Counted from the stretch's first letter, positions 21,141 to 40,394 are shown. The stretch: DNA of 64,000 nt from Candidatus Methylacidiphilales bacterium (GCA_033875315.1 JANRJG010000003.1:124001-188000), one strand, 5' to 3'. Translations and numbers: made by a program. Notes: a model not told the origin generated them from the letters alone.

Positions 21141-24100
21141 ATGACCATTCCTCTACCCCGCCGGCGATCCGGCTTGTGCGCCCTCTTGCTGATCACCGCC
21201 ACTTGCGGTGCGCCCATGGGAAGGAATCTCCCGGCCCTAGAGGTCCTCCCGGGAGCGGCCCGGGCAAGCAGCCGGAACCCGACCCTGAGCGTCCGGGATC
21301 TCTTGGCTCCGGCCCGCACACTTTCCGATGTCACCCTCAAGGGCCCGGAACTGTTGCACTGGGCGCACTCGGGAAAGAAAGGTTTCCGTTTGTCCGGCGA
21401 ACTGGCCGACAAGCGGGCAACAGTCCAGTTGTTGCCAGCCTCGGGATTCTGGGATGTTTCCAAGTTCAGCTATGTTCGCATTGATTTCGTCAACAAAGGC
21501 CCGGGTTTGGTTTGGATCAATGGCCGCCTCGACAATGCAGACGCCATTGATTGGGCCAACAGCACACCTTCGCAGGCCTTCGTCATGCCCGGGGAGCGGG
21601 CGACCCTCGGCTTTCCCTTCCCGCGGGCGAAAGCTCTCAACGACGCGCCATCCATCTACGACCAGCAAAGCGGCAAACCCAACGGCCATCGGGAACACTG
21701 GAAAGCCTTCGACCCCTCCAAAATCATCGCCTGCCGCCTGGGCATCCAATCCACCTCTCCGACCCTGGTCCTGGAGGACGTCGTCATCAGTCTGGCCCAT
21801 CCCTATGGGGCGAAGGCCAACGCGGCATTGCTGGAACTTCCCTATCTTGATGCTTTCGGTCAAGTTAGGAAGCAGGAGTGGCCCGGCAAATTGCACCACG
21901 AGACAGAATTGAAGCAGCGGGAGGAGGCCGAGCGGGTCGCCGCCCAAAATGACCACGGTCCACTTTCGTTCAACAAATACGGGGGCTGGGCCGAGGGCCC
22001 GAAACGGCGCGCCTCCGGTTTCTTCCGGGTGGAAAAAGTCGACGGGAAATGGTGGATCATCGATCCGGAGGGCCGGCTTTTCTTCTCGCACGGGGCGAAC
22101 AGTGTCGGCTTTGATCAAACCACCCCGATTGCGGGACGCGAGTCCTTGTTCGCCTGGCTGCCCGATGCGGTGGATGCCCTCATGGCCGGGGTCATGCGGA
22201 AGGACCGGATGCATTTCATGGAGGCGAATCTCGCCCGTACTTTCGGTCCCGCATGGCCGGAACCCGCCCGCGACCGGGTCCACCGGCGGCTGCGCCAGTG
22301 GGGCATGAACACGATCGGCGCGTGGTCGGATAGCGGATTGATGGCGGAAAAACGCACCGCGTTCACACCGATTTTGCATGTGGGTCAGGAGGGGGCGCCC
22401 CTTGGCAACAAGATCTCGGACCCCTTTGCCAAGGACTTCAAGGCCCGCGTCGTGGAAGGATTGCGGCGGCTGATGCCGGACCCGGGAAATCCTTGGTGTC
22501 TGGGCGTCTTTATCGACAACGAGATCTACTGGACCGAACCCTTTGTGCAGAATGCCTTCCTCCGCGGCGAGAAGCAACCCGCCCGCAACGCTTGCATCGA
22601 TTGGCTGAAGAAAAAGCACGGGACGATTGAAAAACTCAACCTTGCCTGGGGAACCACTTATATGGCCTGGGAGCAGATCGGCCCCTTGCCTGATCCAATG
22701 ACCGAGTCATTGAAAGCGGATCTCTCGGAGATGAAACGCCTGATTTCCGGAACCTATTACCGGCTGTGCCGCGAAGCCATGCGGGAAGCGCTGCCAAACC
22801 ACCTTTACCTCGGTTCGCGCCAGCACAAGGGCGATCCAGAGGTCTACCAAGAATCGGCCAAGTATGTGGACATTCTCAGTCTCAACAACTACGCGGCGCT
22901 CTCCGGTTCCAAGGTCCCCCCCGGGGTCGATGTGCCCTGCCTCGACACCGAATTCCACTTTGGCGCCCCGGACCGCGGCGTGCCCGGCGTGGGATTGTGG
23001 CCGGTAGGCGACCAAATCCAGCGCAGCCGTTCCTACGTGGCCTATGTGCTGGCGGGAATCAAGCACCCCAACATGGTGGGCACCCATTGGTTCGCCTTTC
23101 CCGACCAATCGGCAGCCGGCCGGCCCGGCGAAAATTACCAGATCGGTTTTGTCGATGTGACGGACACGCCCTATCCCGAAATCACCCGGGCCTCGCGCGC
23201 CATGGCGGAGCGGATGTATGCGATCGGTGCCGACAAGTCTTCCAGTCTGTTGGAGTCCCTCGAAGCGCTCTGGCGGAACGAGGACGGGGCCGCCACGACC
23301 GGCAACCTGCCCTATCGCATCGAAAAGAACGAAAGCCTGGCGGTCACTCCGGGCAAGGGGGTTCAGGCGGTCACCGGCAAGGGGCCGTTCCAGATGGTGC
23401 TGACGCCCGCGGACACCGGTGTTTGGAATATGCAGTCGGTCCGGGTTTTGGGACTGATGGTGAAGAACACCGGGAGGACGGACCTGATCCTGGACGTCAT
23501 GGTGCGCAACGACGGCGCGACCACCTTCTCCCACTCCGCGCTCGGCCGCACCGTGGTCAAAGCCGGCGAGTCCCTGCCTTTGGGCGTGGCCTTGCAGCGA
23601 CTGGCCGACTACCGAAGCAAGCATCCGGCCTACCTGAGGATGTCCGGGCGGCCGAACGGCTTCTTCCGGCACTGGCACACGTTCGATCCGACAAGCGTGA
23701 AGGATCTGCTCATCACCTGCCCCAGCCCCGGAGAGCACGCGTTTGAGCTTGGCTCCCTTTTTCCGCTCCAGAAAACGGATGAGCGATTGAACGAACTCCT
23801 TCCGGTCGTGGACCGCTACGGCCAATACGTTCATGGCACATGGCCGGGCAAAGCGGCTTCTGACGCCGACATCAGTGCCAGAGCGAAGGAAGAAGAAGCC
23901 TTGGTGCGCGAACTGGGTCCGGCCCACGGCTTCAACAAATACGGAGGATGGGCCTCCGGTCCCCAGCTCAAAGCAACCGGTTTTTTCCGGACGGAAAAAA
24001 TGGACGGCAAATGGTGGTTTGTGGATCCGGAGGGAAAGTTGTTCTGGTCCTTCGGTGTCAACTGCGTCGGAGCAGATTTCGCCGGGCAGACACCCACTGA

Positions 24101-25256
24101 ACGCGACCCGGCGGTATTCCAAGATCTTCCTCCGGCCAGCGATCCGCGGTTCGGACGCTTCCACGTGAAACTAGAGGTCGAGGAAAACTTTCTCGCGAAA
24201 CCCGATGTCCCGCACTTCGACTTCACCCGGGCCAACCTCTTCCGTAAATATGGCAACAACTGGGCCGAAAAACAAATCGAGCAGGATATTCGTCGCCTGC
24301 AGTACACCCACCTCAACACCATCGGGGCCTGGTCGGACACCGCAATGACCGCACGCCGGAAGGTGCCCTACGTGGCCATGGTTCACTACGTCTATCCCGA
24401 AGCAGCGCCCAAGTTGCCTGATCCCTTCGATCCGAAGACGCGCCTCGGTTTGCGCAAGGCCCTGGCTGCCTATCCTGTCAAATTTGCCGACGACCCCTGG
24501 TGCCTGGGGGCCTTTGTCGACAACGAACTGCACTGGAAGAACGACGCGAGGCTCCTGATCGGTGCGATCTTTGGCCACACCAACACCGGTACGGAAGCAA
24601 GAAAGGTTTTCATCAATTGGCTGCGGAAGAAATACGGCGCGATCGAGGCCCTGAACAAGGGCTGGAAGATGAAGCTGTCCAAGTGGGATGATCTGCTGGA
24701 CACCACCGATCCCCTTCTTTTTTCCGGGGCGGATACCGGCGATTGCTCGGCGTTGGCCGCCCTTTTCTCCGATACCTTGTTCCGGTTGGTCCGGGAGGAA
24801 CTTTCCACTTATTCACCCAACGTGCTGTATCTTGGTTGCCGGATGAACGCCGGATCGCCCGAGGTCATCGCCGCACTGGCCCGGCACGCCGATGTCATCA
24901 GTGCCAACATCTATTCCTACCGGCCGGAACTCAAGCAATATGGCGCAACCGACAAACCCGTGTTGATTTCCGAGTTCCATTTCGTCAACGTTTCGGGGAA
25001 CAATCTGGGCGGCGGATTGCGCAGCGCGCAGGATGCGGTGCAGCAGGGACGGTTGCTGATGGTCTACATGGCCGAAGCGGTGCAGGATCCGAAACTTGTC
25101 GGGGCCCACTGGTTCCAGTGGCGCGATCAGAGCGCCGCCGGCCGCTACGACGGCGAGAATTTCAATGTAGGCCTGTACGATGTGATCGACGGCGCTAACG
25201 TGGATCTGGTCCGGGCCATGGCCTCATGCGGACGAAGCCTGTATCCTGGCAAATAG
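21141..25256 (+). CDS. Double-module GH50 glycoside hydrolase (beta-agarase-like)
   Basis: A 1371-residue secreted protein made of two GH50-type units. A signal peptide ('LCALLLITATCGA') precedes a CBM-like beta domain (about 80-250) and a TIM barrel (about 270-700). A second CBM-like domain (about 715-930) and barrel (about 935-1371) follow. Each barrel begins with the family pattern 'GFFRVEKVDGKWWIIDPEG' or '[19 protein letters not shown]'. The expected acid/base glutamates are E461 ('FIDNEIYW') and E1129 ('FVDNELHW'); the expected nucleophiles are E604 ('DTEFHFGAP') and E1278 ('ISEFHFVNV'). Both sets are intact. GH50 enzymes are exo- or endo-beta-agarases cleaving beta-1,4-galactosyl bonds. 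Whether the substrate here is agar is not proven. It heads the gene run and the start has the signal peptide directly after it. Confidence 0.82.
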   Translation: MTIPLPRRRSGLCALLLITATCGAPMGRNLPALEVLPGAARASSRNPTLSVRDLLAPARTLSDVTLKGPELLHWAHSGKKGFRLSGELADKRATVQLLPASGFWDVSKFSYVRIDFVNKGPGLVWINGRLDNADAIDWANSTPSQAFVMPGERATLGFPFPRAKALNDAPSIYDQQSGKPNGHREHWKAFDPSKIIACRLGIQSTSPTLVLEDVVISLAHPYGAKANAALLELPYLDAFGQVRKQEWPGKLHHETELKQREEAERVAAQNDHGPLSFNKYGGWAEGPKRRASGFFRVEKVDGKWWIIDPEGRLFFSHGANSVGFDQTTPIAGRESLFAWLPDAVDALMAGVMRKDRMHFMEANLARTFGPAWPEPARDRVHRRLRQWGMNTIGAWSDSGLMAEKRTAFTPILHVGQEGAPLGNKISDPFAKDFKARVVEGLRRLMPDPGNPWCLGVFIDNEIYWTEPFVQNAFLRGEKQPARNACIDWLKKKHGTIEKLNLAWGTTYMAWEQIGPLPDPMTESLKADLSEMKRLISGTYYRLCREAMREALPNHLYLGSRQHKGDPEVYQESAKYVDILSLNNYAALSGSKVPPGVDVPCLDTEFHFGAPDRGVPGVGLWPVGDQIQRSRSYVAYVLAGIKHPNMVGTHWFAFPDQSAAGRPGENYQIGFVDVTDTPYPEITRASRAMAERMYAIGADKSSSLLESLEALWRNEDGAATTGNLPYRIEKNESLAVTPGKGVQAVTGKGPFQMVLTPADTGVWNMQSVRVLGLMVKNTGRTDLILDVMVRNDGATTFSHSALGRTVVKAGESLPLGVALQRLADYRSKHPAYLRMSGRPNGFFRHWHTFDPTSVKDLLITCPSPGEHAFELGSLFPLQKTDERLNELLPVVDRYGQYVHGTWPGKAASDADISARAKEEEALVRELGPAHGFNKYGGWASGPQLKATGFFRTEKMDGKWWFVDPEGKLFWSFGVNCVGADFAGQTPTERDPAVFQDLPPASDPRFGRFHVKLEVEENFLAKPDVPHFDFTRANLFRKYGNNWAEKQIEQDIRRLQYTHLNTIGAWSDTAMTARRKVPYVAMVHYVYPEAAPKLPDPFDPKTRLGLRKALAAYPVKFADDPWCLGAFVDNELHWKNDARLLIGAIFGHTNTGTEARKVFINWLRKKYGAIEALNKGWKMKLSKWDDLLDTTDPLLFSGADTGDCSALAALFSDTLFRLVREELSTYSPNVLYLGCRMNAGSPEVIAALARHADVISANIYSYRPELKQYGATDKPVLISEFHFVNVSGNNLGGGLRSAQDAVQQGRLLMVYMAEAVQDPKLVGAHWFQWRDQSAAGRYDGENFNVGLYDVIDGANVDLVRAMASCGRSLYPGK

Positions 25257-25274
25257 GATAGGAAATAGAATCCC

Positions 25275-26801
25275 ATGCAAAAAGAAACCACCCCCCAATA
25301 TCAAACGCTCTCCAAAAGCGGCAAGCTGAGCTTCCGCGAAAAATTCTCGGTGGGAACCGGCGGATTCACCGTATCGCTGGGAAACCAGAGCGTGCGGACA
25401 ACCGGCCAAGCGGTCTTGAACATCATCTTGGGCATCAACGCATTCTGGGTGGGCATCGTGCTCGCCGTCCCCATGTTTTTGGAAGCCGTCATTGACCCGA
25501 TCATGGGGAACATTACCGATAATTTTCGATCGAGGTATGGCCGTCGCCGGCCGTTTATTTTTGCAGGGGCGATCCTGATGGGACTGACCTTTGCCTCCAT
25601 CTGGATGATTCCACTGGAGTGGAGTGACACTGGAAAACTCGTCTGGTTCCTCGTCACCAGCCTCCTGTTCTACGTGACTTACACCATCTTTTCCGTGCCT
25701 TTCATCGCCCTGACCTATGAGATGACACCGGACTACGAAGAACGCACAAACGTCCAGGGTTATGTCACGTTTTGGAACCGCCTGGGAGAAATGACCTACA
25801 TGGGCCTTATTCCCCTTTCCGCGATGTTTATTGCCTGGAAATACGGCTATGCCGATTCCACCGACCTGACCAAGGCTGAAAAAATGGAAGGCATCCGCAT
25901 TTCCGCGGCCATCTATGGCGGCATCGGCATGACGCTCTTCGGCATGCTTCCCGCGTTCTTCGGAAGGGAACGCAATTATGAAATCAACATCAAGGAACAC
26001 CACGGAAAGAGGGACCCCTTCTGGCCCTCCGTCCGCCTGTGTCTTCATAACCGCGCTTTCACCATTCTTTGCACCATTGCCGTCTTCACCATCATTGCCG
26101 GCATGTTTGCCAGCAACATGGACTGGTATCTTCTGATCTATTATCTGTCGAACGGCGACGTGACGGTGGGAACCCAGTGGAAGCTGATTGTGACCGTGGG
26201 CTATGCATTGGTCGGCGTGCTCGGAATTCCTATGATCGTCTGGCTGACCGGGAAGATGACCAAGATCAGCGGCTTCATGTTCATCTATGGCATGATGATC
26301 CTCAACGCGGTCATCCGCTGGTTCGTTTACCATCCCGGACGCTTCGATACCGTGCTGGGTTGGTCGAGTTTAAAGGCCATCGGAGGCTCGCTCATGGCTA
26401 TTTTCCAATCGCTGATTTGGCTGGACCCCCTGACCGGCGGGTTGTTCTGGATCGGCGTGGGTGTGCTCGGCCAATCGCTGATTGCCGATGTTTGCGACGA
26501 TGACGAGATCAAGAATGGCCGCCGGCGGGAAGGCCTGTTTGGCGCCATTTACGGCTGGTCCATGAAGGCTTCTTTTGCCATCAGCTTTGTCATGATCGGT
26601 GTGTTTCTCAATGCCATCGGCTTCGACCCAGGGGCGGAATCGCAGAGCCCGCAGACCTATTTCAACATGCGTCTGGCCATGTGCCTGGGTGCGGCCTGCC
26701 CGGCCGTTTTGTGCTTCGTTCTCCTCAAATACTATCCACTGACCAAGGAAACCGCGGAGAAAAACCGCAGGGAACTTGAGCGCTTGCGGACGGGAAGCTG
26801 A
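25275..26801 (+). CDS. GPH-family (MelB-like) sugar:cation symporter
   Basis: A 508-residue, about 12-TM transporter of the glycoside-pentoside-hexuronide:cation symporter family in the inner membrane. The hallmark 'DPIMGNITDNFRSRYGRRRPF' in the loop after helix 2 holds the Asp residues that in MelB bind Na+ and sugar; a second Arg/Gly motif, 'KNGRRREGLFGAIYG', marks the C-terminal half. It lies 18 bp after the GH50 gene and before cytoplasmic GH43 and GH112 genes, so it is the likely importer of the oligosaccharides released outside. An AGGAAA site precedes the ATG. No SusC/SusD pair accompanies it. Confidence 0.9.
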   Translation: MQKETTPQYQTLSKSGKLSFREKFSVGTGGFTVSLGNQSVRTTGQAVLNIILGINAFWVGIVLAVPMFLEAVIDPIMGNITDNFRSRYGRRRPFIFAGAILMGLTFASIWMIPLEWSDTGKLVWFLVTSLLFYVTYTIFSVPFIALTYEMTPDYEERTNVQGYVTFWNRLGEMTYMGLIPLSAMFIAWKYGYADSTDLTKAEKMEGIRISAAIYGGIGMTLFGMLPAFFGRERNYEINIKEHHGKRDPFWPSVRLCLHNRAFTILCTIAVFTIIAGMFASNMDWYLLIYYLSNGDVTVGTQWKLIVTVGYALVGVLGIPMIVWLTGKMTKISGFMFIYGMMILNAVIRWFVYHPGRFDTVLGWSSLKAIGGSLMAIFQSLIWLDPLTGGLFWIGVGVLGQSLIADVCDDDEIKNGRRREGLFGAIYGWSMKASFAISFVMIGVFLNAIGFDPGAESQSPQTYFNMRLAMCLGAACPAVLCFVLLKYYPLTKETAEKNRRELERLRTGS

Positions 26802-26859
26802 GGTTTCATTCCACGGAAGTTCCCCACTATCATTCAAGAAAACGAAATCAGAAAAGAAC

Positions 26860-27954
26860 ATGAACCATTCACGCACTCAGTTTGAACCCGGAAAAATATG
26901 GTGCGACACCCACGGTGTTCCCATCAATGCCCACGGGGGCGGGTTGCTTTTCCACCAAGGCCTCTACTACTGGTTCGGTGAACATAAGATCGAGGGGGAT
27001 GCGGGCAACCGGGCCATGGTGGGCGTGCACGCCTACTCCTCGGCCGACCTCTACAACTGGAATGACGAAGGCATCGTCCTCCCGGTCAGCACCGAGCCGG
27101 GCCATGACATCGAAGTCGGTTGTATTCTTGAGCGCCCCAAGGTGATCTTCAACGCCGCCACCGGGAAGTTCGTCATGTGGTTTCATCTGGAGAAGAAAGG
27201 TTGCGGCTATGACACCGCCAGCAGCGGGGTTGCGGTGGCCGACCGGCCCACCGGACCGTTCACCTACCTGCGCGCCTTTCGTCCCAATGCAGGAGTGTAT
27301 CCGCGGAATGATGGACCCAGTCTCCACTCGCCGAGTTTGGTCGGCGGCATTTTCACCGGTGACCATCCACTGCCACGCCTGAACGTCGTCCAAAGCAACA
27401 TCTTCGCCCGCGACCTGGCACAGGGCCAGATGGCGCGCGACATGACCCTTTTTGTGGACGACGACGGCAAGGCTTATCACATTTACTCGTCCGAGGAAAA
27501 CAGCACCCTTCATCTATCGGAACTGGATGCGACTTACCAGGCCCCGGCCGGCAACTTCGTCCGCCTCTTCGAGGGACGCTATATGGAAGCCGCGGCGGTC
27601 TTCAAACGCGACGGATTTTACTACCTGATCGCCAGCGGTTGCACCGGTTGGGATCCCAACGCCGCGCGTTGCGCCATCGCTCAGAACATCATGGGACCCT
27701 GGCACGAGATGGACAATCCTTGCCTGGGGGTGAACCCGCAGAATGGTTTCGGCCCAGAGAAAACCTTCGGAGCGCAGAGCACCTACGTGCAGAAGGTGCA
27801 CGGCCGCACCGATGCGTTCATCGCCCTGTTTGACATCTGGACCCCTGCCAACGCCATCGACGGTCGCTATGTGTGGCTTCCGGTTTCGTGGAAAGAAGAC
27901 CGCGGCTTCTCGATCCAATGGCGCGACGCGTGGGATCTTTCCGTTTTTGAATAA
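26860..27954 (+). CDS. Cytoplasmic GH43-type enzyme (exo-beta-1,3-galactanase-like)
   Basis: A 364-residue five-bladed propeller without a signal peptide. The opening 'WCDTHGVPINAHGGGLLFHQ' and 'YYWFGEHK' match the exo-beta-1,3-galactanase branch of GH43 (subfamily 24), as I recall it. Blade motifs continue with 'ERPKVIFN', 'ARDMTLFVDDDGKAY' and 'GRYMEAAAVFKRDGFYY'. In this subfamily the usual GH43 catalytic base can be missing, so the acid and base cannot be named with confidence here. In the cytosol it would trim galactose from imported oligosaccharides. The start at 26860 is preferred because upstream frame sequence is unlike the family. Confidence 0.75.
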   Translation: MNHSRTQFEPGKIWCDTHGVPINAHGGGLLFHQGLYYWFGEHKIEGDAGNRAMVGVHAYSSADLYNWNDEGIVLPVSTEPGHDIEVGCILERPKVIFNAATGKFVMWFHLEKKGCGYDTASSGVAVADRPTGPFTYLRAFRPNAGVYPRNDGPSLHSPSLVGGIFTGDHPLPRLNVVQSNIFARDLAQGQMARDMTLFVDDDGKAYHIYSSEENSTLHLSELDATYQAPAGNFVRLFEGRYMEAAAVFKRDGFYYLIASGCTGWDPNAARCAIAQNIMGPWHEMDNPCLGVNPQNGFGPEKTFGAQSTYVQKVHGRTDAFIALFDIWTPANAIDGRYVWLPVSWKEDRGFSIQWRDAWDLSVFE

Positions 27955-27982
27955 CAACCTCATAGCCAGTCAAAGACCCATT

Positions 27983-30181
27983 ATGGCCGACAAAAAAAAC
28001 GAACGCAAAGGCGGCTTCACTCTGCCTGCGCAGGCCGGCATGGACGAAGTGGTGTTGGACCTGGCCAGGCGATGGGGAGCCGATGCCATCCGCGATTCGG
28101 ATGGAACCGTCCTTTCGGACTCGATCACCAACCTCGGGTATGAAATCTATTCAACTCTGTGCCTGATCCGGGCCGACCAGACTTGGAACAACGCACACCC
28201 AGAGGACCACCAACAGAAATATCTTTTTTCCACGCCGCAGGTGGCTCGCGACACCACCATCCAGATCGACATCCTCGCCCGGTATTCCCCGCAACAATAC
28301 CGGATCGATGAAATCAATGACTGCAAAAAGTATTGGGAGGTGATCAACCGGACCACCGGCCAAGTCATTCCGGTCTCCAATTGGGAATATGCCAATGGCA
28401 TCGTCACCGTTCGCCACTGCGCCAAGTGGAATGTTTACAGCGTCAACTTCCTCGTCTTCCAGATCTGGGAAACGACCTCGATGTACAACCACCTCACCAA
28501 CAACTGGGGTGACAAACCGCACCAATCCGGGGTGGACCCCCGCAAGAAGGCGACGCGCGAGCACCTCGCCCGATTTCTTGATAAATGGCTCGAAACCCAC
28601 CCCGGCACGGACTACGTGCGGTTCACCTCGATGGCCTACCAGTTCCCCATCATCACCAATCCCTCGCATGAGACGCTCTATCAGGATTGGTATGGCTACC
28701 TTGATTGCATGAGCGCCCAAGCGCTGGATGAATTCGAGGCGAAGAAGGGCTACCGTCTGCGTCCGAACGACATTGTCGACAACGGGTACTTTTGCTCCAC
28801 CGACCGCGTGCCGAGCAGAGCTTATCTCGATTGGATCGAGTTCATCCACGAGTTCATGGTCGATTGGTCGAGGCAGTGCGTCCAACAGGTCCACAAGGCC
28901 GGTAAAAAGGCGGTGTTGTTCTACTGTGACCACTGGATCGGCACGGAACCCTACAAGCCGAAATTCCAGCAGATCGGCTTTGATGGCATCATCGGCCCCT
29001 GCATCAACGGCCGCGAAGTCCGCCGCATCGCCGATGTGCCGGGCGAGTTGGTCAAGGAGTTGCGCCTCTATCCCTATTTCTTTGCGGTCGACCTGCTCAA
29101 CCGCCCAACTTTCCAAGAAGGCGGCAACCCGGTGGCGGATTGCAAGAAATACTGGATGTGGATCCGCCGGGCCATGCTGCGCAAACTGGTCCATCGCATC
29201 GGCTATGGCGGTTATCTGGACTTGGCGGTCAAATTCCCGGACTTCATCGACTACATCGAATACCAGACCAAGGAGTTTTACGGGATCTGCGAGCACTCCG
29301 ATTTCACCCCGGTGGAGAACGCCCCGTTCAAGGTGGCGATCCTAAATGCCTGGGGACGGGATCGTTCCTGGGGTTACGACCAATCCTGGCCGGAGGGCGC
29401 GATCACGGAGTCGCTCTCGGGACAGCCTTTTGACCTAGTGTGGATCAACTTTGACGACATACGCAATGGCATTCCCGCGGATGTTGGCGTGATCATCAAC
29501 CTCGGCCACGCGGGCACCTCATGGAGCGGGGGCGAGAATTGGAAGGACCCGCGCGTGGTCGCGGAAATACGCGCGTTTGTCGACCAAGGCGGCGGCTTCT
29601 TGGGAGTCCTTGATCCTACGGCGGCGGATAACGGCGGTGCTTTTTACCAGTTGTGGGATGTCCTCGGCGTGCAGAAAGAATACGGCCTCTCCAACGACAC
29701 AAAAAAAGTGATCTCCACGGAGGAGAGGAAAGGGCATTTCATCTTGGCCGATTCCAACAGCGCCGCACCGGACCTGGGCAAGCATGTGCAGCGGATTTAT
29801 CCCAGCGTGGAGACGGCATCCATTGTGGCCAAAGATCACGAGGGCAGCATCACCATTGCAGCTAACAATTACGGGAAGGGTCGCGGAGTGTACCTGGCCG
29901 GATTCAAGCTCGGTGCGGAACAAAGCCGCCTTCTGCAGCGTGCGATCTGGTTCGCCTCAGGCCGGGAGGACCAGATGACCCGGCGCTGGTTCTCCACCAA
30001 CCCGCACACCGAAATCGCCGCCTACCCACAGACCCGGAAATACATCGTCATCAACAATGCCAACGATCCACAAACCACGGAGATCACCGACGGGGAAGGC
30101 CGGAAGCACACCGTTCAACTCGCGGCCAACGCTTCCCAATGGTTTGATTTCTCCGGGAACGCGATTCAACCGACAACTTAA
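27983..30181 (+). CDS. GH112 beta-galactosyl phosphorylase (lacto-N-biose/galacto-N-biose type)
   Basis: A 732-residue cytoplasmic protein of family GH112, the usual length. Diagnostic segments are the N-terminal 'FTLPAQAGMDEVVLDLARRW' and 'GADAIRDSDGTVLSD', the barrel segment 'VDWSRQCVQQVHKAGKKAV', and a GATase1-like domain around 'GGGFLGVLDPTAADNGG'. GH112 enzymes phosphorolyse Gal-beta-1,3-GlcNAc/GalNAc or Gal-beta-1,4-L-rhamnose to alpha-galactose 1-phosphate and the free acceptor sugar. The sequence alone does not tell me which. It sits 28 bp after the GH43 gene and 6 bp before galT, so the product can flow directly into the Leloir pathway. No N-acetylhexosamine kinase or rhamnose genes are nearby. 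Confidence 0.88.
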   Translation: MADKKNERKGGFTLPAQAGMDEVVLDLARRWGADAIRDSDGTVLSDSITNLGYEIYSTLCLIRADQTWNNAHPEDHQQKYLFSTPQVARDTTIQIDILARYSPQQYRIDEINDCKKYWEVINRTTGQVIPVSNWEYANGIVTVRHCAKWNVYSVNFLVFQIWETTSMYNHLTNNWGDKPHQSGVDPRKKATREHLARFLDKWLETHPGTDYVRFTSMAYQFPIITNPSHETLYQDWYGYLDCMSAQALDEFEAKKGYRLRPNDIVDNGYFCSTDRVPSRAYLDWIEFIHEFMVDWSRQCVQQVHKAGKKAVLFYCDHWIGTEPYKPKFQQIGFDGIIGPCINGREVRRIADVPGELVKELRLYPYFFAVDLLNRPTFQEGGNPVADCKKYWMWIRRAMLRKLVHRIGYGGYLDLAVKFPDFIDYIEYQTKEFYGICEHSDFTPVENAPFKVAILNAWGRDRSWGYDQSWPEGAITESLSGQPFDLVWINFDDIRNGIPADVGVIINLGHAGTSWSGGENWKDPRVVAEIRAFVDQGGGFLGVLDPTAADNGGAFYQLWDVLGVQKEYGLSNDTKKVISTEERKGHFILADSNSAAPDLGKHVQRIYPSVETASIVAKDHEGSITIAANNYGKGRGVYLAGFKLGAEQSRLLQRAIWFASGREDQMTRRWFSTNPHTEIAAYPQTRKYIVINNANDPQTTEITDGEGRKHTVQLAANASQWFDFSGNAIQPTT

Positions 30182-31234
<1,053 letters not shown>

Positions 31235-31252: not shown

Positions 31253-32230
31253 ATGAAAGTATTGGTCACAGGCGGGGCGGGATATGTCGGCAGCACGGCC
31301 ACGGCGGAACTCATCCAAGCCGGTCACGATGTCGTGGTGTTCGACAACTTGAGCCAGGGCCACCGGTCGTCGGTCCATCCGAAGGCGGCGTTCGTGCATG
31401 GCGATCTGGCCAACATCGGCGCCGTGGAACAGGTCTTCGCGGAACACCGCCCGGAGGCGGTGATGCACTTTGCCGCCCGCAGTCTGGTGGGCGAATCCAT
31501 GCACAAGCCATTCCTGTATCTCGGCGAGAACATCACCAACGCGCTCAACCTCCTGCAAGTGACGGCTGACCGGGGGGTGAAGCGTTTCATCTTCTCCTCC
31601 ACGGCCAATCTGTTCGACAACCCGGCCAAAATCCCGATCGATGAATCGGCCCAGATCATTCCGGGAAGCCCCTACGGGGAATCCAAATTCATCATCGAGC
31701 GCATGCTCTACTGGCTGGAGAAGACCCACGACCTCCATTACGCGTGCCTGCGCTATTTCAATGCCGCCGGTGGCACACCCGAACGCGGCGAGGATCACGA
31801 CCCCGAAACGCACTTGATACCCATCATCCTCCAGGTCGCGCTCGGACAGCGCACACATGTCACGGTCTTCGGCAACGATTACGCCACGCCCGATGGAACC
31901 TGTGTGCGCGATTACGTCCATGTGGCGGACCTCGCACAGGCCCATATCCTTGCGCTGGAGGCACTGGATTCGGGCAGCCGGATTTACAACCTGGGCAATG
32001 GTTTGGGATTCTCGGTCAAGGCCGTCATTGATGCCGCGCGAGCCATCACTGGACACCCGATTCCCGTGCAAATGGGCCAGCGTCGCCCGGGAGATGTGGC
32101 GACTTTGGTTGCCGGCAGCGACAAAATCCGGCGCGAGCTGGGCTGGACACCGCGCTATGCCGATTTGAACACGATTGTCCGGAGCGCCTGGGACTGGCAC
32201 CGCACTCATCCCCATGGTTATGAGGATTGA
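31253..32230 (+). CDS. galE: UDP-glucose 4-epimerase
   Basis: A 325-residue short-chain dehydrogenase that interconverts UDP-galactose and UDP-glucose, regenerating the co-substrate of GalT. The NAD site is 'TGGAGYVGS', the catalytic pair is Y141 and K145 in 'SPYGESK', and '[20 protein letters not shown]' and '[14 protein letters not shown]' are GalE-type. An unusual feature is 'SSTANLF' where most GalE have 'SSSATVYG'. The ATG follows a GAGGAAT site. Its last 11 bp overlap the next gene. Confidence 0.92.
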
Positions 32231-34340
32231 CCCCGTGCGACAAGGGTCGCTTCTTGGCAGGAGAAGCCGCCCCTGGCTGGCCGCTCTCCTTTTCGCGCTG
32301 CCGGGTGTGGGGACTGTTCTTGCCGTGGAGCCAGGGGTTAAGACCGATGTCCGAGTGTCCGGCGACGCCACCCGGACGGGGGATTCCGCAGGATGGACGT
32401 CCCTCCGCCTTGACAAGCCCTCGGGCCTAGCCCAGGTGGCTTTTTTTTACCAGAAGGGACCGGGCGCACTGAATCTGTCTGCCTTCCGCGATGTGGCGGT
32501 GCAGGTGAAAAATGACGCCGACGCGGAAGTGGACGTGCTGGTCAACGCCACGAGCAATCCGGATGCCGCCTGGCTGGAAAGCACCAGTGGACGCTTTTTG
32601 GTTCATCCGGGCGAGACGGGCAACCTCACCACCCTGATGACACGGGCAGCTCTGCCGGGGGAACATCCCTTTGTGAAGCAGTTGGGGAACCTGTACGCCT
32701 TTCCCTGGGGGCACCAGGGTCATTGGCGCCACATGGATACTTCTGCCATTGTCCGGGTGACCCTGCGACTCAAGTGGAGCCTGGCCAGCGTCGGCCGCAC
32801 GCTGCAGATCGGCCACCCGGGTGGACATGGATTCTACAGTACGGATTCCGCATTGCTCCAGACTCTGGAACTGCCTTTGGTCGACCCGTTCGGCCAGCTC
32901 CGTGAGGGTGATTGGCCTGATAAACTAAAGGATCGCGCCGAATTCCATAAGGATGGGAAAAAGGATTTGGAACTGATCTCGAAAGTGACCCGGGTGGACG
33001 GGGGACGGAGCCGGTTCGGCGGAATGGCCGACGGACCCAAGTTGAAGGCTACGGGTTTTTTCCGCGTGGAGAAGCTCAACGGCAAGTGGTGGTTCGTGGA
33101 TCCGGAGGGGAATCTCTTTTGGTCGCACGGCGTCAACTGTGTCGGTGGCTCGGATGCCACCAAAGTGGCGGGCAGGGAGAGCCTTTTTTCGGAGGGAGAC
33201 CGCAGCCAGCCCTCGATGAATTTTTATGCGAAGAATCTTAAGCTGAAGTTTGGCGAAGAACACTGGAAGGAGCGGCTGGCGGAACTTTCACTGGCACGCA
33301 TGTTCGACTGGGGCTTGAACACGGTGGGGGCTTGGTCGATGTCTGAACTCTCGGATAGCCAGCGGATTCCGTACACCCTCATCGTCCATGCGTATCTGCA
33401 GCAGTTGGGCAATACCCGGAAGATTGCCGACCCCTTCTCGGACGGGTTCCAAAACTCTTTGGACAAGAGCCTACAGGGGCTGGCGGCCAAGCATGCAAAA
33501 AGCCCCTGGCTTCTGGGAGTGTATATCGAGAATGAACTCGATTGGAAATACGGCCATGAGCTCGTCAACGACATCATCGGCAGCTACGAGTCGGCCCCGG
33601 CACGGGTTGCGCTGGTGAAGTTTTTGCAGGAACGCCATGGCGGCATCGCCGGACTGAACCAGGCCTGGGATACCCAGTTCAAGAGCTTTAAGGAACTCCA
33701 ACCCGCGCCCGGTCCTATGGGCAAGAAAACCTGCTCCAAGGACCTCGATGATTTTATGGACTTATTTGCCGACCGCTACTTTGCGGTCAGCAGGGCGGCG
33801 ATGCGGAAACACCTCCCCAACCATTTATTCTTGGGCAGCCGTTTCCATATCTTCAACCCCCACGTAACAGCGGCGGCCTCGCGGCACTGCGATGTGATCA
33901 GCGTGAACATCTACCAACACAGCTTCCATGAATTCAATATGGAAACCAGCCAGGACCGGCCGTGGATCATCAGTGAATTTCACTTCGGCACACCGGATCA
34001 CGGAGTGTGGGGGGTGGGGCTGACTTGGGCGGCCGATGCGAGGAACCAGGCCGATCTGTATCAGGCATACGTCTCAGATGCCCTGCGCCATCCGAACTTT
34101 GTGGGCACCCATTGGTTTGCCTGGACGAGCCAGCCCGTGACTGGAAGGGGCGACGGAGAGAATTTTGGCATGGGCATGGTCAGCTTGGTGGACCGACCTT
34201 TGGAAAAGTTGGTCCGGGCGGTGCAAAAAGTTTCGCGTGAACTCTACACCTACCGTCTGAACGGCCTGGAGAGCCGGATCGGAGAGGTCCGGGAAAAACC
34301 GGCGGCCGCCGGTCAAGTTTCACCAGTTACATCCCCCTGA
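32220..34340 (+). CDS. Secreted GH50 glycoside hydrolase (beta-agarase-like)
   Basis: A 706-residue single-unit GH50 protein: an Arg-rich signal peptide ('[17 protein letters not shown]'), a CBM-like domain (about 45-235) and a TIM barrel (about 255-690). The barrel starts '[19 protein letters not shown]'. The expected catalytic residues are E439 ('[11 protein letters not shown]') as acid/base and E586 ('[12 protein letters not shown]') as nucleophile. It is clearly related to both units of the 1371-residue protein upstream. The ATG overlaps galE by 11 bp (32214 is an in-frame alternative), so it belongs to the same transcript. It would cut beta-galactan outside the cytoplasm. Confidence 0.82.
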
Positions 34341-34342
34341 TC

Positions 34343-35956
34343 ATGAATAAGCCTATCCACCCACACATGTCTTCGGCAAGTTTGATCCGACTTCACCCAA
34401 AAAAGGTTTGGCTCGTTTGGTCTCTGGCCGTCCTGACTTTCCCCTTGCAGGCATTGGAACTGCCAAAGGTTTTTTCCGACCGCATGGTTTTGCAGCAGGG
34501 TCAGCCACTGCCGGTTTGGGGGCGGGCCGAGGCCGGGGCCACCGTCACGGTCAAATTCGGGCAGCAATCCGTGAATGCCGTGGCCGAGGCCGGGGGGAAT
34601 TGGATGGCCACTCTGGCCCCCGAGACGGCCAGCGCCACACCCGCCACCCTGACGGTCCGCAGTGGGGACAAGGAACTCTCTTTCGATGATGTCCTCGTTG
34701 GCGAAGTCTGGCTCTGCTCTGGCCAGTCCAACATGGAATGGTCAGTAAATGGCGCGCTGAATGGGGATATCATTCCGTTGAGCGGAGGGAATCCACAGCT
34801 GCGCTTCTATCATGTTGAACGGCACGTTTCCGTCGCACCCCGTTTCTCCGCCAACGCCACATGGACCGCAGCCCAATCGGATACCATTCCCTCCTTCAGT
34901 GCAGTGGCATACCACTTCGGGTCGACGCTTCAGCCCGCCGTTGGAGTTCCGGTCGGTTTGATCGCCGCGTCGTGGGGAGGAACACCGGCTATTTCATGGA
35001 CCCGGCCATCCGCCTTCGACAAGCACCCACTGTTGGCGGAACAAGCTGCCGAGTGGGAGGCTGGAATAAAAACCTATCCAGAGCGCAAAACACAGTTTGA
35101 GGCCAAAATGGCCGATTGGAAAAAGGCCAAGGGGCTCCCGCCGGATGCAAGAGTAACCAACGATCGCTATCCCGATGCGCCCTGGCCCCCTGCACATGAT
35201 CCCGAAAGCTCCAAACGGCCCGGTGTTTTGGCCAACGGCATGTTGGCTTCAGTGGCTCCTTTTGCCATCCGCGGCGCCATCTGGTACCAGGGAGAAGCTG
35301 ACGCAGGTTGGGAACCGGATCGGTATGATGAACGCCTTGCCGTGATGGTGAACGACTGGCGTGTCTGGTGGAATAATCCCCAACTCGCGTTCGGAGTCGT
35401 GCAATTGGCCGGATTCAAAGCACCGTCGGAGACACCCACGGACGACCCCTGGTCCAGGCTCCGCGAGAGCCAGCGCCGCTTTGTCCGCAAGGATTCCCAT
35501 GCCGGGCTGGCAGTGGCCATAGATATTGGGGAAGCCAATGATATTCACCCATTTGACAAACAGACGGTTGGGCAAAGGCTGGCCCGCTGGGCGTTGGCGG
35601 ATGTTTACCAGAAGATCAAGCTCCGGGGGGGACCGGAGCCGGTTGACGTCACTTTTGATGACTTCGTGCGTATCCGCTTTGAATCAGTGGGGGGGGGGCT
35701 TTGGATTTTGAATGGAGGGGATCTGCAAGGCTTCACACTTGCTGGCGCGGATGGTGTTTTTCATGTGGCCAGAGCAGAAATCAAGGGGAAGGATACCGTG
35801 GAGGTTAGAAGCCCTTCTGTTCCCGTTCCACAAACCGTCCGTTATGCCTGGGCCGCCAATCCACGCGGAGCCAACCTCAGCAACAAGCAACGCTTGCCCG
35901 CCGGTCCCTTTGAGCTCAAACAAACAAATGCCACCCCCATTCCTGCAAGGGAGTAA
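34343..35956 (+). CDS. Sialate O-acetylesterase-type esterase, copy 1
   Basis: A 537-residue secreted SGNH hydrolase of the SASA/sialate O-acetylesterase type. After the leader ('WLVWSLAVLTFPLQA') the protein begins 'LELPKVFSDRMVLQQGQPLP', the standard opening. The catalytic Ser is S129 in 'LCSGQSNMEW' and the terminal motif 'ANDIHPFDKQ' gives the Asp-x-x-His pair. In polysaccharide loci such enzymes usually remove acetyl groups from glycans, not necessarily from sialic acid. It starts 2 bp after the GH50 stop. Its 3' part shares a nearly identical DNA stretch with the next gene. Confidence 0.88.
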   Translation: MNKPIHPHMSSASLIRLHPKKVWLVWSLAVLTFPLQALELPKVFSDRMVLQQGQPLPVWGRAEAGATVTVKFGQQSVNAVAEAGGNWMATLAPETASATPATLTVRSGDKELSFDDVLVGEVWLCSGQSNMEWSVNGALNGDIIPLSGGNPQLRFYHVERHVSVAPRFSANATWTAAQSDTIPSFSAVAYHFGSTLQPAVGVPVGLIAASWGGTPAISWTRPSAFDKHPLLAEQAAEWEAGIKTYPERKTQFEAKMADWKKAKGLPPDARVTNDRYPDAPWPPAHDPESSKRPGVLANGMLASVAPFAIRGAIWYQGEADAGWEPDRYDERLAVMVNDWRVWWNNPQLAFGVVQLAGFKAPSETPTDDPWSRLRESQRRFVRKDSHAGLAVAIDIGEANDIHPFDKQTVGQRLARWALADVYQKIKLRGGPEPVDVTFDDFVRIRFESVGGGLWILNGGDLQGFTLAGADGVFHVARAEIKGKDTVEVRSPSVPVPQTVRYAWAANPRGANLSNKQRLPAGPFELKQTNATPIPARE

Positions 35957-35960
35957 TTCT

Positions 35961-37583
35961 ATGACTTTTTTCAAACGCCGATTCGGAAAACAACATGCTC
36001 CCGAAGCTGTTCGTTCTTCTTTTTTGTTGCCGAGGATTTTTTTCATTGCCTTGACCACCTGGGCTCTCCCATTGCGGGCGCTGGAGGTGCCGACGATATT
36101 TTCGGATCATATGGTTTTGCAGCAGGGGCAGCCCTTGCCGGTCTGGGGTCGGGCCGAGGCCGGAGCCAGGATTTCTGTCGTCTTTGGAAAACAATCACTG
36201 GAGACAGTAGCGGATGGTCAGGGGAAATGGCTGGTCACACTGGCACCCGAGACAGCCAGTGCGATACCAGCAACCCTGCAAGTTCGATGCGGCGACAAGG
36301 AGGTCATCCTCAAGGATATTTTGGTTGGGGAGGTCTGGCTGTGCTCTGGACAATCAAATATGCAACATACGGTCGGAGAAGCCCTCAACGCCGATATCAC
36401 TCCGATCGTAGCACAAAATCCGTTGATACGTTTGTATCAAGTCGATCGGGTTGCCTCAACGACACCCCGTTTTTCCGCGAACACGACGTGGACCCCCACC
36501 GAATATAAGACCGTATCGAGCTTTAGTGCCGCCGGCATACACTTTGCCTCGGTTGTGCAGCCGACTCTGGGTGTGCCCGTCGGCCTGATTGGGGCTTCCT
36601 GGGGGGCCACTCCTGCGATAGCATGGACCCGGCCCTCGGTGCTCGATAAGCATCCGCTCTTTCTGGAGAATTTGGCCGAATGGGAAAAGGGCATGAAAGC
36701 ATTTCCTGAGCGCTATGCGGCCTATCTGGTGAAATGTGCCGAATGGAACAAGTCCAAGGGTCTGCCCGAGGATGCCCCAGTGAACCACTGGAGCACACCG
36801 GGAGCTCCCAAGCCGCCTCCTTACGATCCCAATGGATCGAATCGAGCAGGAAACCTCGCCAACGGAATGCTCTCGACCGTCGCTCCTTTTGCCATGCGCG
36901 GGGTCATTTGGTATCAGGGTGAAAACGACACCAATTGGGTCCCGGAAAAATACCACGAGCGTCTTGCCCTGATGGTCAACGATTGGCGGGTTTGGTGGAA
37001 CAATCCAGAACTTGCCTTTGGGGTGGTGCAGTTGGCCGCATGGAAACAGCCGGGTGAAAACAGTGATGGAGACTGGCCTCGTTTGCGCGAAAGTCAGCGT
37101 CAATTCGTTCTTGCTGATCCGCACGCGGGATTGGCTGTAGCCATTGATGTAGGTGAGGCCAACAACATCCACCCGTTTGACAAACAGACTGTTGGGCAAA
37201 GGCTGGCCCGCTGGGCGTTGGCGGATGTTTACCGGAAGATCAAGCTCCGGGGGGGGCCGGAGCCGGTCGAGGCCACATTTGAAAAGTCAGTGATCATTCG
37301 TTTTGAGTCTGTGGGCGGCGGTCTCTGGGTTTTTAATGGCGGGGAACTGACGGGATTCACTGTGGCTGGCTCGGACGGGGTCTTCCATGAGGCCAAGGCT
37401 GAAATCAAAGGCCAGAACACCGTCGAGGTCAGCAGCCCCGATGTGCCTTCACCAGTCACCGTCCGCTATGCATGGGCGCACAATCCCCGCGGCGCCAACC
37501 TCAGCAACAAACAACGCCTTCCGGCCGGACCCTTTGAGATGAGCAGGCCACCAACCCCCAATCATACCAACTCAATACCATGA
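35961..37583 (+). CDS. Sialate O-acetylesterase-type esterase, copy 2
   Basis: A 540-residue paralogue of the previous gene, 4 bp downstream. A Lys/Arg-rich start and hydrophobic stretch ('IFFIALTTWALPLRA') form the signal peptide. The catalytic Ser is S132 in 'LCSGQSNMQH', and 'ANNIHPFDKQ' supplies the Asp and His. The protein likely deacetylates the same polysaccharide at another position. A GGGAG site precedes the ATG at 35961, which fixes the start against a longer open frame from 35712. Its stop overlaps the next start by 4 bp. Confidence 0.88.
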   Translation: MTFFKRRFGKQHAPEAVRSSFLLPRIFFIALTTWALPLRALEVPTIFSDHMVLQQGQPLPVWGRAEAGARISVVFGKQSLETVADGQGKWLVTLAPETASAIPATLQVRCGDKEVILKDILVGEVWLCSGQSNMQHTVGEALNADITPIVAQNPLIRLYQVDRVASTTPRFSANTTWTPTEYKTVSSFSAAGIHFASVVQPTLGVPVGLIGASWGATPAIAWTRPSVLDKHPLFLENLAEWEKGMKAFPERYAAYLVKCAEWNKSKGLPEDAPVNHWSTPGAPKPPPYDPNGSNRAGNLANGMLSTVAPFAMRGVIWYQGENDTNWVPEKYHERLALMVNDWRVWWNNPELAFGVVQLAAWKQPGENSDGDWPRLRESQRQFVLADPHAGLAVAIDVGEANNIHPFDKQTVGQRLARWALADVYRKIKLRGGPEPVEATFEKSVIIRFESVGGGLWVFNGGELTGFTVAGSDGVFHEAKAEIKGQNTVEVSSPDVPSPVTVRYAWAHNPRGANLSNKQRLPAGPFEMSRPPTPNHTNSIP

Positions 37584-38953
37584 AAATACCACCTTGTTCA
37601 ACCCTGATAGGCCTCTTCTTCCTGAACGGCCTCCTCTTTGCCCAATCTTTCAAAATATCCGAAGGCCTGTCCGAGACCGACCGCAGGCGTTTTCAACGGT
37701 TTGAGACCTTTCAAATCAAAGGCGTGTGCGGGGATGCCGACCTCGACCGCCTGGCCGGGCTTGGCGTGAACACGGTGAGGGGTTACTCCATCAAAGATCC
37801 CGAGGATGTACGGAAAAAACTCGATCACGCCCATCGCTTGGGGATGAAAATGGTGGTGAGCGAATGGATGCCCCACCAAGGCGAAAACAAAGACAAGAAA
37901 GGCGGGGTGTGGAGTTTTGACTACCACGCCAAGGGGGACCAGATGGTGTCCAATCTGGTCAAAAAAGTGGAGGCAATCGGCGACCATCCGGCCCTCCTCA
38001 TGTGGGGGCTGGGCAACGAAGTCCACCTCGACGAGCCCTATCTGCGCGTGGCCAACCGGATGTCGTTGGAAATCCACAAACGATTCCCACACCACCTCAC
38101 CAGCCTGACCATGGTCAACGCCAAGCCGGAAGGGATCGAAGCGGTCAAGAAGTTCGCCCCGGACATCGATGTCCTGGGCATCCAGAGCTACAGCCGCGGG
38201 GCGGTTTATGGCTCGATCAAGAAGACGGAGGAACTCTGGGGAAAACCCTTCTACATGTCCGAGTTCAACACCAACGGGCCATGGAATTTCGGCAAGACGC
38301 CCTGGGGCGTTGAGAACGACGAGCCGGTGACTAAGAAGGTCAGCGATTTGAAAGCCTGTTACGCTTCGATCGATGCGTCCCCGCTCTGCCTGGGTTCGAC
38401 CATTTTTGTTTGGGGTCATGCCCTGCCCTACCGGCCCACTTATTTCAGTCTCCTGCTCGATCCAGATCCCAATGGACAGGGAGACAAGGAATCATTCGAT
38501 CACTTGATGATGACCCCGCAGGCCGATGTCATGACCGAGCACTTCACCGGCCGACCGCCCAAGGGCAACCGCGCGCCGGTGCTTTCCAAGCTTGAGTTCG
38601 AGGGCGGCACCAATTACCGGTTCGCCAACCCCGGGGAGCCGATGAATGTCACTTTTTCCGCCCAAGATCCCGACGGAGACACCATCACGTTTGTCACTTG
38701 GATTCTCGATTCCACCGAGCGCAGAACCACCCGTGTGGCCGGTCCGTTTCCGCAAGCATCGCCCGGTCATGCCGTCATCCCGGCTCCCTCTGTGAACGGT
38801 GAATACCTGCTCATGGTCTATGCCATTGACCAAAAGGGAGGCGCCTCTGCCAGCACCATCGCCTTCAAAGTGCCCACCCCGGTGGTCGAAACCCCGGTAC
38901 CCGCTCCAACCGTTCCAACTCCCATGCCCGTGGTCCCCACGGTCAAACCCTGA
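37580..38953 (+). CDS. Secreted clan GH-A TIM-barrel hydrolase, copy 1
   Basis: A 457-residue exported protein: signal peptide ('LIGLFFLNGLLFA'), a GH2-core-like TIM barrel (about 25-320) and a C-terminal cadherin/Ig-like domain (about 335-440) ending in a Pro/Val/Thr-rich tail. Clan GH-A features are E147 in 'GLGNEVHLDEP' (acid/base) and E228 in 'MSEFNTNGPW' (nucleophile). The N-terminal segment 'FQIKGVCGDADLDRLAGLGV' and 'NTVRGYS' resembles GH2 and related beta-glycosidase barrels, but the usual GH2 sandwich domains are absent. I cannot assign a family or substrate. The ATGA overlap with the esterase gene ties it to the gene run. Confidence 0.75.
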   Translation: MKIPPCSTLIGLFFLNGLLFAQSFKISEGLSETDRRRFQRFETFQIKGVCGDADLDRLAGLGVNTVRGYSIKDPEDVRKKLDHAHRLGMKMVVSEWMPHQGENKDKKGGVWSFDYHAKGDQMVSNLVKKVEAIGDHPALLMWGLGNEVHLDEPYLRVANRMSLEIHKRFPHHLTSLTMVNAKPEGIEAVKKFAPDIDVLGIQSYSRGAVYGSIKKTEELWGKPFYMSEFNTNGPWNFGKTPWGVENDEPVTKKVSDLKACYASIDASPLCLGSTIFVWGHALPYRPTYFSLLLDPDPNGQGDKESFDHLMMTPQADVMTEHFTGRPPKGNRAPVLSKLEFEGGTNYRFANPGEPMNVTFSAQDPDGDTITFVTWILDSTERRTTRVAGPFPQASPGHAVIPAPSVNGEYLLMVYAIDQKGGASASTIAFKVPTPVVETPVPAPTVPTPMPVVPTVKP

Positions 38954-39020
38954 GTCTTGCCCTGATCTTTCCATCCGATCCGATCATCCCAACCCAGCAT
39001 CCCATGCATCCCCGCTACTT

Positions 39021-40394
39021 ATGAAAGCCACCACCCCACTCACTTTTTTGACCCTGCTCCTCCTGGCCACTTCGGCCTTTTCCTACTCATTCGTCCTTCC
39101 TGAGGGCATGACCGAAGTGGAACGCCAGCGCTTCGGGCGTTTCAAGAGTTTCCAGATCAAGGGGGTTTGCAACGAAGACGACCTCCCTCGACTGGCCCGA
39201 CTCGGTGTCAACACCGTCCGCGGATACACCATCGGTGAACCCAAGGAGATGAAGGAGAGACTGGATCGCGCCCATGCCCTGGGCCTCAAGGTGATTGTCA
39301 GCGAGTGGATGCCCCACCACGGAGAAAACAAAAACAAGGAAGGTCATAAGTGGGACTTCGACTATACTGCCAACGGCGATAAAATGGTCGCAAGTCTGAT
39401 GCATAGGATTGTCGGCTTCGGCGACCATCCTGCCATCCTCATGTGGGGTCTAGGCAATGAAGTTCACTTGAACGAGCCTTATCTGCGCGTGGCCAACCGC
39501 ATGTCCTTGGAAATCCACAAACGATTCCCGAATCACCTCACCAGTCTGACCATGATCAATGCAAAACCGGAGGATATTGAAAAGATCAAGAAATTCGCGC
39601 CAGACATCGATGTGCTCGGCATCCAATGCTACAGTCGGGGGGCCGTGCGTGGTGGGATCAAGAATGCGGAAACACATTGGGGCAAGCCCTTCTACATGTC
39701 CGAGTTCAACACCAACGGGCCTTGGAATTTCAAGAATACCCCCTGGGGCTCTCCTTTGGATGAACCGGTCAGCCGCAAGGTCAACGACCTGAAGGATTGC
39801 TACAACGCCATAGATGAGTCCCCCCTCTGTCTGGGATCGACGATTTTTGTTTGGGGACACTATGCCGTGGACGATCGTCCGACTTATTTCAGCCTCCTGT
39901 TGCATGACAATCCGAAGGGCCTGCAGGATGGTGAGACATTCGATCGATTGCTGATGACCCCCCAGGCCGATGTGATGACGGAACGTTTTACCGGGAAAGC
40001 CATCGCCGGCAACCGCGCCCCCGTCATCACCAAACTGGAGTTTGATGGAGGTGCCGGGTCCAAGGTGGCGCAACCCGGCGAGTCCATGACGATAAGATTT
40101 GCCGCGGAAGACTCGAATGCCGACACGGTGACATTCGTCAGCTGGATTTTGAAAGCCAAAACCAAAAAGACGACGCCACTTGCCGGCCCCTTGGCCCAAG
40201 CCTCGGCATCTCACGCTGTCATCCAAGCCCCGACCGCTCCGGGCGAATACCTGGTCATGGTCTATGCCATGGATAAGAAGGGGGGGACCTCGGCCACTGT
40301 GCTGCCCTTTATGGTTCCAGACCCGGCTGCAGCAGCCAGCTCCTCGGCCAATACCACCGCGACAAAGGCTGCCACACCACCCCCCGAAGCCTAA
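39021..40394 (+). CDS. Secreted clan GH-A TIM-barrel hydrolase, copy 2
   Basis: A tandem paralogue of the preceding gene and the same length (457 residues). The leader is 'LTLLLLATSAFSYS', the acid/base is E147 in 'GLGNEVHLNEP' and the nucleophile lies in 'MSEFNTNGPW'. The C-terminal Ig-like domain is kept, but the tail is Ala/Ser/Thr-rich instead of Pro/Val-rich. The 67-bp gap before it is the longest inside the run after the first genes, so a separate promoter is possible. It is the last gene of the run. Two close copies suggest activity on two linkages or simple dosage. Confidence 0.75.
   Translation: MKATTPLTFLTLLLLATSAFSYSFVLPEGMTEVERQRFGRFKSFQIKGVCNEDDLPRLARLGVNTVRGYTIGEPKEMKERLDRAHALGLKVIVSEWMPHHGENKNKEGHKWDFDYTANGDKMVASLMHRIVGFGDHPAILMWGLGNEVHLNEPYLRVANRMSLEIHKRFPNHLTSLTMINAKPEDIEKIKKFAPDIDVLGIQCYSRGAVRGGIKNAETHWGKPFYMSEFNTNGPWNFKNTPWGSPLDEPVSRKVNDLKDCYNAIDESPLCLGSTIFVWGHYAVDDRPTYFSLLLHDNPKGLQDGETFDRLLMTPQADVMTERFTGKAIAGNRAPVITKLEFDGGAGSKVAQPGESMTIRFAAEDSNADTVTFVSWILKAKTKKTTPLAGPLAQASASHAVIQAPTAPGEYLVMVYAMDKKGGTSATVLPFMVPDPAAAASSSANTTATKAATPPPEA

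Follow-up and report, generated by a model that had tools for sequence, protein, structure and literature searches.

Which polysaccharide is consumed by a gene run that places GH50 enzymes beside a GH112 phosphorylase, galT and galE, and do these families belong together in one pathway? The question is raised by positions 21141-40394 of a 64,000-nucleotide stretch of DNA (the window) from a Candidatus Methylacidiphilales bacterium, which the first-pass annotation had interpreted as extracellular agarase-like cleavage feeding a phosphorolytic, kinase-independent Leloir route. Our analysis partly supports this interpretation: the pairing of GH50 with GH112 and the feeding of GalT hold, and the agar reading is left without support.

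Organization of the gene run

Eleven genes lie on the plus strand between 21141 and 40394, and recomputed start codons and gaps reproduce the annotated layout, with gaps of 18, 58, 28, 6, 18, -11, 2, 4, -4 and 67 bp along the run (-11 being the overlap between galE and GH50B). The genes are probably co-transcribed, gap lengths and the common strand being what speaks for a single operon; promoter and terminator scans gave nothing above shuffles or chance. Pfam, NCBIfam and PDB searches confirmed the annotated families (GH50, GPH, GH43, GH112, GalT, GalE and two esterases). The two enzymes previously assigned to clan GH-A are real and could be further specified as GH158-like, since both match GH158 structures (9oro at E of about 1e-28 to 1e-30, and 6pal). 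The genes are listed below with the divergent sulfatase upstream; orthologs refer to G284, a relative of the same class whose genome is 99% complete.

19399..21048, minus strand: sulfatase, divergent from the run (stop-to-stop ORF; Pfam Sulfatase E 1e-53; 71% identity to the sulfatase adjoining GH50B in G284)
21141..25256, plus strand: GH50A, predicted to be secreted, two GH50 catalytic units (PDB GH50 agarases E 4e-71)
25275..26801, plus strand: GPH-family sugar symporter (Pfam MFS_2 E 3e-62; NCBIfam gph; 80-81% identity to the Kiritimatiellae locus)
26860..27954, plus strand: GH43_24-type putative exo-beta-1,3-galactosidase without signal peptide (PDB 6eug E 5e-112)
27983..30181, plus strand: GH112 phosphorylase of an uncharacterised lineage (Pfam E 1e-164; AlphaFold model TM 0.91 to 2zus; trees)
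30188..31234, plus strand: GalT, galactose-1-phosphate uridylyltransferase (TIGR00209, 559 bits)
31253..32230, plus strand: GalE, UDP-glucose 4-epimerase (TIGR01179, 403 bits, above cut-off)
32220..34340, plus strand: GH50B, predicted to be secreted (PDB GH50 agarases E 1e-72; 53% identity to GH50B of G284)
34343..35956, plus strand: SASA-type carbohydrate esterase 1 (Pfam SASA E 9e-15; ortholog 66%)
35961..37583, plus strand: SASA-type carbohydrate esterase 2 (Pfam SASA E 2e-15; ortholog 68%)
37580..38953, plus strand: GH158-like clan GH-A enzyme a, predicted to be secreted (PDB 9oro E 2e-28, 6pal E 3e-23; ortholog 68%)
39021..40394, plus strand: GH158-like clan GH-A enzyme b, predicted to be secreted (PDB 9oro E 5e-30; ortholog 65%)

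A search that gives GH112 matches in 25 other genomes of the phylum finds none in G284. There, GH50B, both esterases and both GH158-like enzymes have orthologs within a single region of some 40 kb, together with those of the divergent sulfatase, fucosidases, GH16, GH116 and GH50C, and the sulfatase gene directly adjoins GH50B in divergent orientation. Exactly between these two genes, the window carries the six-gene cassette GH50A-GPH-GH43-GH112-galT-galE. Judged by gene order, the run appears to be two modules joined together, namely the six-gene galactose cassette and genes 7-11, which go with a G284-type locus. The cassette was either gained in the window lineage or lost in G284. The synteny ties the second half of the run to sulfatases and fucosidases.

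The wider locus

The functional locus reaches well beyond the run in both directions, to about 70 kb in our best explanation. Downstream of the run, the window includes:

45611..47581, plus strand: GH29 alpha-L-fucosidase of the same wider locus (Pfam E 2.5e-71; G284 ortholog 73%)
56012..58144, plus strand: GH42 beta-galactosidase of the same wider region (Pfam E 4e-133; 34% identity to the GH42 adjoining GH112 in Kiritimatiellae)
59428..60954, minus strand: sulfatase of the same wider locus (Pfam E 7e-55; ortholog in G284)
61906..63279, minus strand: MFS transporter of the same wider region (Pfam MFS_1 E 2e-53)

The 20 kb past the window end contain GH2, GH50C, two GH29, GH43, GH16, GH116 and one sulfatase. 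All of the genome's sulfatases (4/4) are found within C3:143732-212779, a stretch that starts at 19.7 kb in the window and runs on for about 25 kb beyond it, and this clustering singles out one locus specialised for sulfated polysaccharides; GH50A, B and C of the genome and its only strong galT are located there as well. A gene for a FucU/RbsD-like protein (L156:8913-9548) adjoins GH116 (9452-12739) and two GH29 genes, suggesting fucose use in the same locus. The first-pass annotation had described the run as lacking SusCD; no match to the SusD profile (PF07980) was found in the whole genome, and the locus is thus not a SusCD-type polysaccharide utilization locus.

Other genes were observed in the region. 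A large repeat-rich protein, predicted to be secreted, is encoded 567 bp 3' of the run (40962-43271, plus strand), and a similar protein (232 bits) adjoins a sulfatase in G284. The GH31-type gene at 43368-45740 (plus strand) is broken by one in-frame stop at 44106-44108, being a pseudogene or reflecting a sequence error. The minus-strand gene at 47908-52269 encodes a putatively secreted protein of 1454 aa with a glycosyl hydrolase core, two F5/8 C-type domains, a ricin-type and an Ig-like domain; a related protein is encoded at the margin of the G284 locus. A search of viral contigs found no relatives.

GH50 and GH43 enzymes

Both GH50A units and GH50B match the beta-agarase structures 4bq2, 5z6p and 6xj9 (E of about 1e-68 to 1e-73). 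The NE, EFH and GEN active-site motifs, taken from a published residue list (PMC11079163), are kept in all three units, including the two catalytic Glu, and in GH50C (C3:189165, just past the window). While the family call stands, the locus enzymes do not join the agarases: in the GH50 tree, which includes only two reference sequences and was sampled starting from the window protein, they group with GH50s of Kiritimatiellae and G284 in a 16-row clade (SH-aLRT 96), apart from the two marine agarase structures and from the proposed GH50_1 group of characterised agarases. Because the family now includes beta-1,3-glucanases (PMC11079163), agarase activity of these enzymes cannot be assumed. They share catalytic residues with Saccharophagus Aga50D and its relatives but belong to a different clade with 32-40% identity, and where those agarase systems process neoagarobiose, the window locus has a GH43_24 enzyme.

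The GH43 enzyme, previously annotated as cytoplasmic, could be refined to GH43_24. Among solved structures it matches 6eug best (E 5e-112) and next 3vsf and 7bys, which are exo-beta-1,3-galactanases of Clostridium thermocellum and Phanerochaete. The residues E, R, E, W and Q are all aligned, including the catalytic Glu and the glutamine that defines the subfamily in place of the usual catalytic Asp base (PMC7939473). Its N-terminus shows no signal peptide, and the PDB search gave no GH117-like best match. As far as homology can tell, this enzyme is the strongest single pointer to the substrate, suggesting that beta-1,3-linked galactose is processed in the cytoplasm.

A distinct GH112 lineage

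The GH112 of the window contains all three Pfam domains (E 1e-164), its AlphaFold model has the GH112 fold (TM 0.91 to 2zus), and the catalytic Asp (Bl D313) is kept as D316, which places it in the family. It shows about 42% identity both to Oter_1377 and to the Bifidobacterium enzyme. Oter_1377 from Opitutus terrae, which we take to be the single GH112 of genome G123, was included in the comparison. It has been characterised as a Gal-beta-1,4-Rha phosphorylase (PMC8950772). Relatives were gathered by scanning GTDB genomes and analysed in two trees. The window GH112 falls into its own clade (99/99 support) with relatives of 85% and 80% identity from Cock Soda Lake sediment (isolate names CSSed; PMC6704655), and the sister group, from KSB1, Phycisphaerales and Spirochaetes, is 48-52% identical. 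The clade takes a position intermediate between the two characterised lineages, outside the galacto-N-biose/lacto-N-biose phosphorylases (GLNBPs) and on the Gal-Rha side at 97/94, as sister to the Oter_1377 clade and not inside it, in trees with long branches.

A loop of six residues after PY(L/F)F, a trait of the Gal-Rha phosphorylases, is present in the motif-matched clade members and absent on the GLNBP side; part of it is of low confidence in the AlphaFold model. The surrounding residues are clade-specific, unlike those of the Gal-Rha enzymes across the acceptor region. Compared with the Gal-Rha phosphorylases Oter_1377 and Cphy_1920, the window enzyme thus has the same fold, chemistry and loop and is closer in the tree than to GLNBPs, but differs in acceptor-region residues and in neighbours. 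To our knowledge, no member of this clade has been assayed, and no described GH112 member naturally phosphorolyses galactose-galactose bonds.

Conservation of the GH50-GH112 link

A related cassette in soda-lake Kiritimatiellae, another class of the phylum, combines GH50A-GPH-GH42-GH112 with sulfatases and galT-galE-galK, indicating that the link is conserved, though rare. Three genomes (L032-L034/L045) share the order GH50A-GPH-GH42-GH112-sulfatase as far as the contig reaches, and the most complete contig has a divergent sulfatase-galT-galE-galK group with galK adjoining galE. The recurrence of GH50A, GPH and GH112 side by side with galT and galE bears out the earlier proposal that GH50 and GH112 belong together. 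An Opitutales locus reads GH43_24-GH112-sulfatase-sulfatase; the slot upstream of GH112 is taken by GH43_24 in Opitutales and by GH42 in Kiritimatiellae. Conservation is highest for the pair GPH and GH112 (80-85% identity; GH50A, galT and galE reach 59-64%), which suggests a common ligand.

Among the sister-group loci (L046-L049, from KSB1, Phycisphaerales and Spirochaetes MAGs), GH112-GH42 is accompanied by one to several GH53 galactanases in 4/4 and by GPH in 3/4, the symporter not being detected in Spirochaetes. GH42 with a galactanase, and mostly GPH, is common to both groups; the sister loci have GH53 endo-beta-1,4-galactanases where the window has GH50, and no sulfatases were seen in them. 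GH112 beside GH53 was not described in the portions of the literature available, nor were GH50 and GH112 in one locus, in agreement with the first-pass annotation. The Kiritimatiellae, Opitutales and sister-group neighbourhoods place the GH112 clade with galactan enzymes in every locus with readable neighbours, while the endo-enzyme and the hydrolytic partner of GH112 change between them.

Linkage of GH50 and GH112 was found in one small GH112 lineage, whereas genome-wide co-occurrence is not above chance (7/22 GH112 genomes versus 125/388; P=0.60; 388 genomes of the phylum). It is thus in that GH112 lineage specifically that the two families are associated, and the argument rests on linkage there: GH50 adjoins GH112 in all four genomes with readable flanks, which are related and not independent events. 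We do not rely on a Fisher test on linkage (4/4 versus 1/76), as related genomes and the window itself are among its counts. Elsewhere, a weak GH50-like match lies 7 kb from a Gal-Rha-type GH112 (L078).

Galactose 1-phosphate and galactokinase

The passage of galactose 1-phosphate from GH112 to GalT is sound biochemistry (PMC8950772), and the run carries the only strong galT of the genome, so this part of the annotated route is supported. The absence of galactokinase holds for the eleven genes but not for the genome, where galK is found at C11:15550 (374 aa, with the galactokinase signature). As GH43_24, GH42 and GH2 would also free galactose, calling the route kinase-independent was an overstatement. 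The GH112-GalT-GalE system of the other GH112 lineage likewise passes galactose 1-phosphate to GalT and GalE; here the genome has no GH20 hexosaminidase, and galactan enzymes are present instead.

Alternative explanations

The main rival holds that GH112 is a D-galactosyl-beta-1,4-L-rhamnose phosphorylase acting on a galactan that contains rhamnose, for example a rhamnogalactan or a pectic side chain. The branching on the Gal-Rha side, the loop on the acceptor side and the region of the DGxI..C..(N/S)...E motif, both common to the window enzyme, Oter_1377 and relatives, the rhamnose isomerase gene in the genome and the GH53-linked sisters, which fit pectic galactan, are all compatible with it. 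We nevertheless consider it unlikely, given the low identity to Oter_1377, the residues that differ throughout the acceptor region, and the lack of recognised rhamnose or RG-I genes among the scanned proteins of the window, its flank and the GH53-linked loci. Pectic beta-1,4-galactan is also unlikely here because GH53 is absent from the genome. The name given by NCBIfam TIGR02336, above its cut-off, would instead make GH112 a GLNBP acting on Gal-beta-1,3-HexNAc (galacto-N-biose or lacto-N-biose), and mucin systems also have fucosidases, sulfatases and SASA esterases. The position outside the GLNBP clade, the loop that GLNBPs lack, differences from the Bifidobacterium enzyme at its positions 161, 162 and 336, and the missing GH20 make this assignment very improbable.

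Two further readings concern the extracellular enzymes. If, along the lines of the first annotation, the substrate were a galactan of the agar or porphyran type, cut by the GH50s as agarases, with GH112 phosphorolysing the resulting Gal-beta-1,4-L-sugar units, this would agree with the conserved active sites of the GH50s, since most characterised GH50s are agarases (PMC11079163), and with a GH112 nearer to enzymes accepting an L-sugar at O4. Their separate clade, the GH43_24 specific for beta-1,3-galactan in place of a GH117-like enzyme, and a flanking GH16 that matches laminarinases better than agarases or porphyranases render the agar route improbable. The same GH16, the GH158-like enzymes and part of the GH50 family belong to groups with beta-1,3-glucanases, which could mean that the secreted enzymes attack beta-1,3-glucan next to an unrelated galactose cassette, all the more as the second module occurs without GH112 in G284. 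But the galactose cassette includes GH50A here as well as in Kiritimatiellae, galE and GH50B overlap, and both modules are surrounded by sulfatases and fucosidases; we regard this as the least probable of the alternatives.

A model for galactan utilization

In our best explanation, to which we give an even chance, the locus serves the use of a galactan that contains beta-1,3-linked galactose and is sulfated and fucosylated, and the steps inside the cell combine hydrolysis with phosphorolysis. Outside the cytoplasm, secreted GH50, GH158-like and GH16 enzymes, esterases, sulfatases and fucosidases would trim and cut the polymer. The GPH symporter might import the galacto-oligosaccharides, from which GH43_24 would hydrolyse off beta-1,3-linked galactose. 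The substrate of GH112 would be a disaccharide ending in galactose, galactobiose being the most likely one; its phosphorolysis would yield galactose 1-phosphate for direct use by GalT and GalE, and galactose freed by hydrolysis would be phosphorylated by the galK located elsewhere in the genome.

That GH112 acts on galactobiose is a tentative prediction, falling somewhat short of an even chance. With equal reserve, it might extend to the nine-member clade, GH50-linked in soda-lake Verrucomicrobiota and Kiritimatiellae and GH53-linked in KSB1, Phycisphaerales and Spirochaetes, whose members could be galactobiose phosphorylases on Gal-beta-1,3-Gal and Gal-beta-1,4-Gal. A literature search for galactobiose phosphorylase, or for this natural GH112 specificity, found no description. 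Sulfated type II galactan requiring a sulfatase before GH43_24 is known, according to the part of the source available (PMC8406133). The Bacteroides loci for (sulfated) arabinogalactan proteins covered there, such as that of B. plebeius, have GH43_24 exo-beta-1,3-galactanases and sulfatases as found here, with desulfation preceding backbone cutting. Those loci use SusCD, and that part names no GH112 or GH50 for them, whereas the window has GPH import, GH112 and galT/galE in one run and the genome has no SusD.

Several observations sit uneasily with our best explanation. The branching of GH112 nearer to Gal-Rha phosphorylases than to GLNBPs (97/94) and the shared loop make rhamnose a possible acceptor; the galactan linkage suggested by the GH53-linked sisters is beta-1,4, that suggested by the window beta-1,3; and GH158 and the laminarinase-like GH16 are from families with beta-1,3-glucanases.

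In summary, the six-gene cassette is placed cleanly inside a sulfated-galactan locus, and the GH50 lineage of this locus should not carry an agarase annotation. Throughout this untested GH112 lineage, the neighbours vary, with GH50 or GH53 and GH43_24 or GH42, and the galactan theme is constant. This raises the question of whether phosphorolysis is a further way of consuming galactans, one that spares ATP at the galactokinase step. Galactobiose phosphorylases, if the prediction is true, would allow galactans of plants or algae to be used by way of phosphorolysis.
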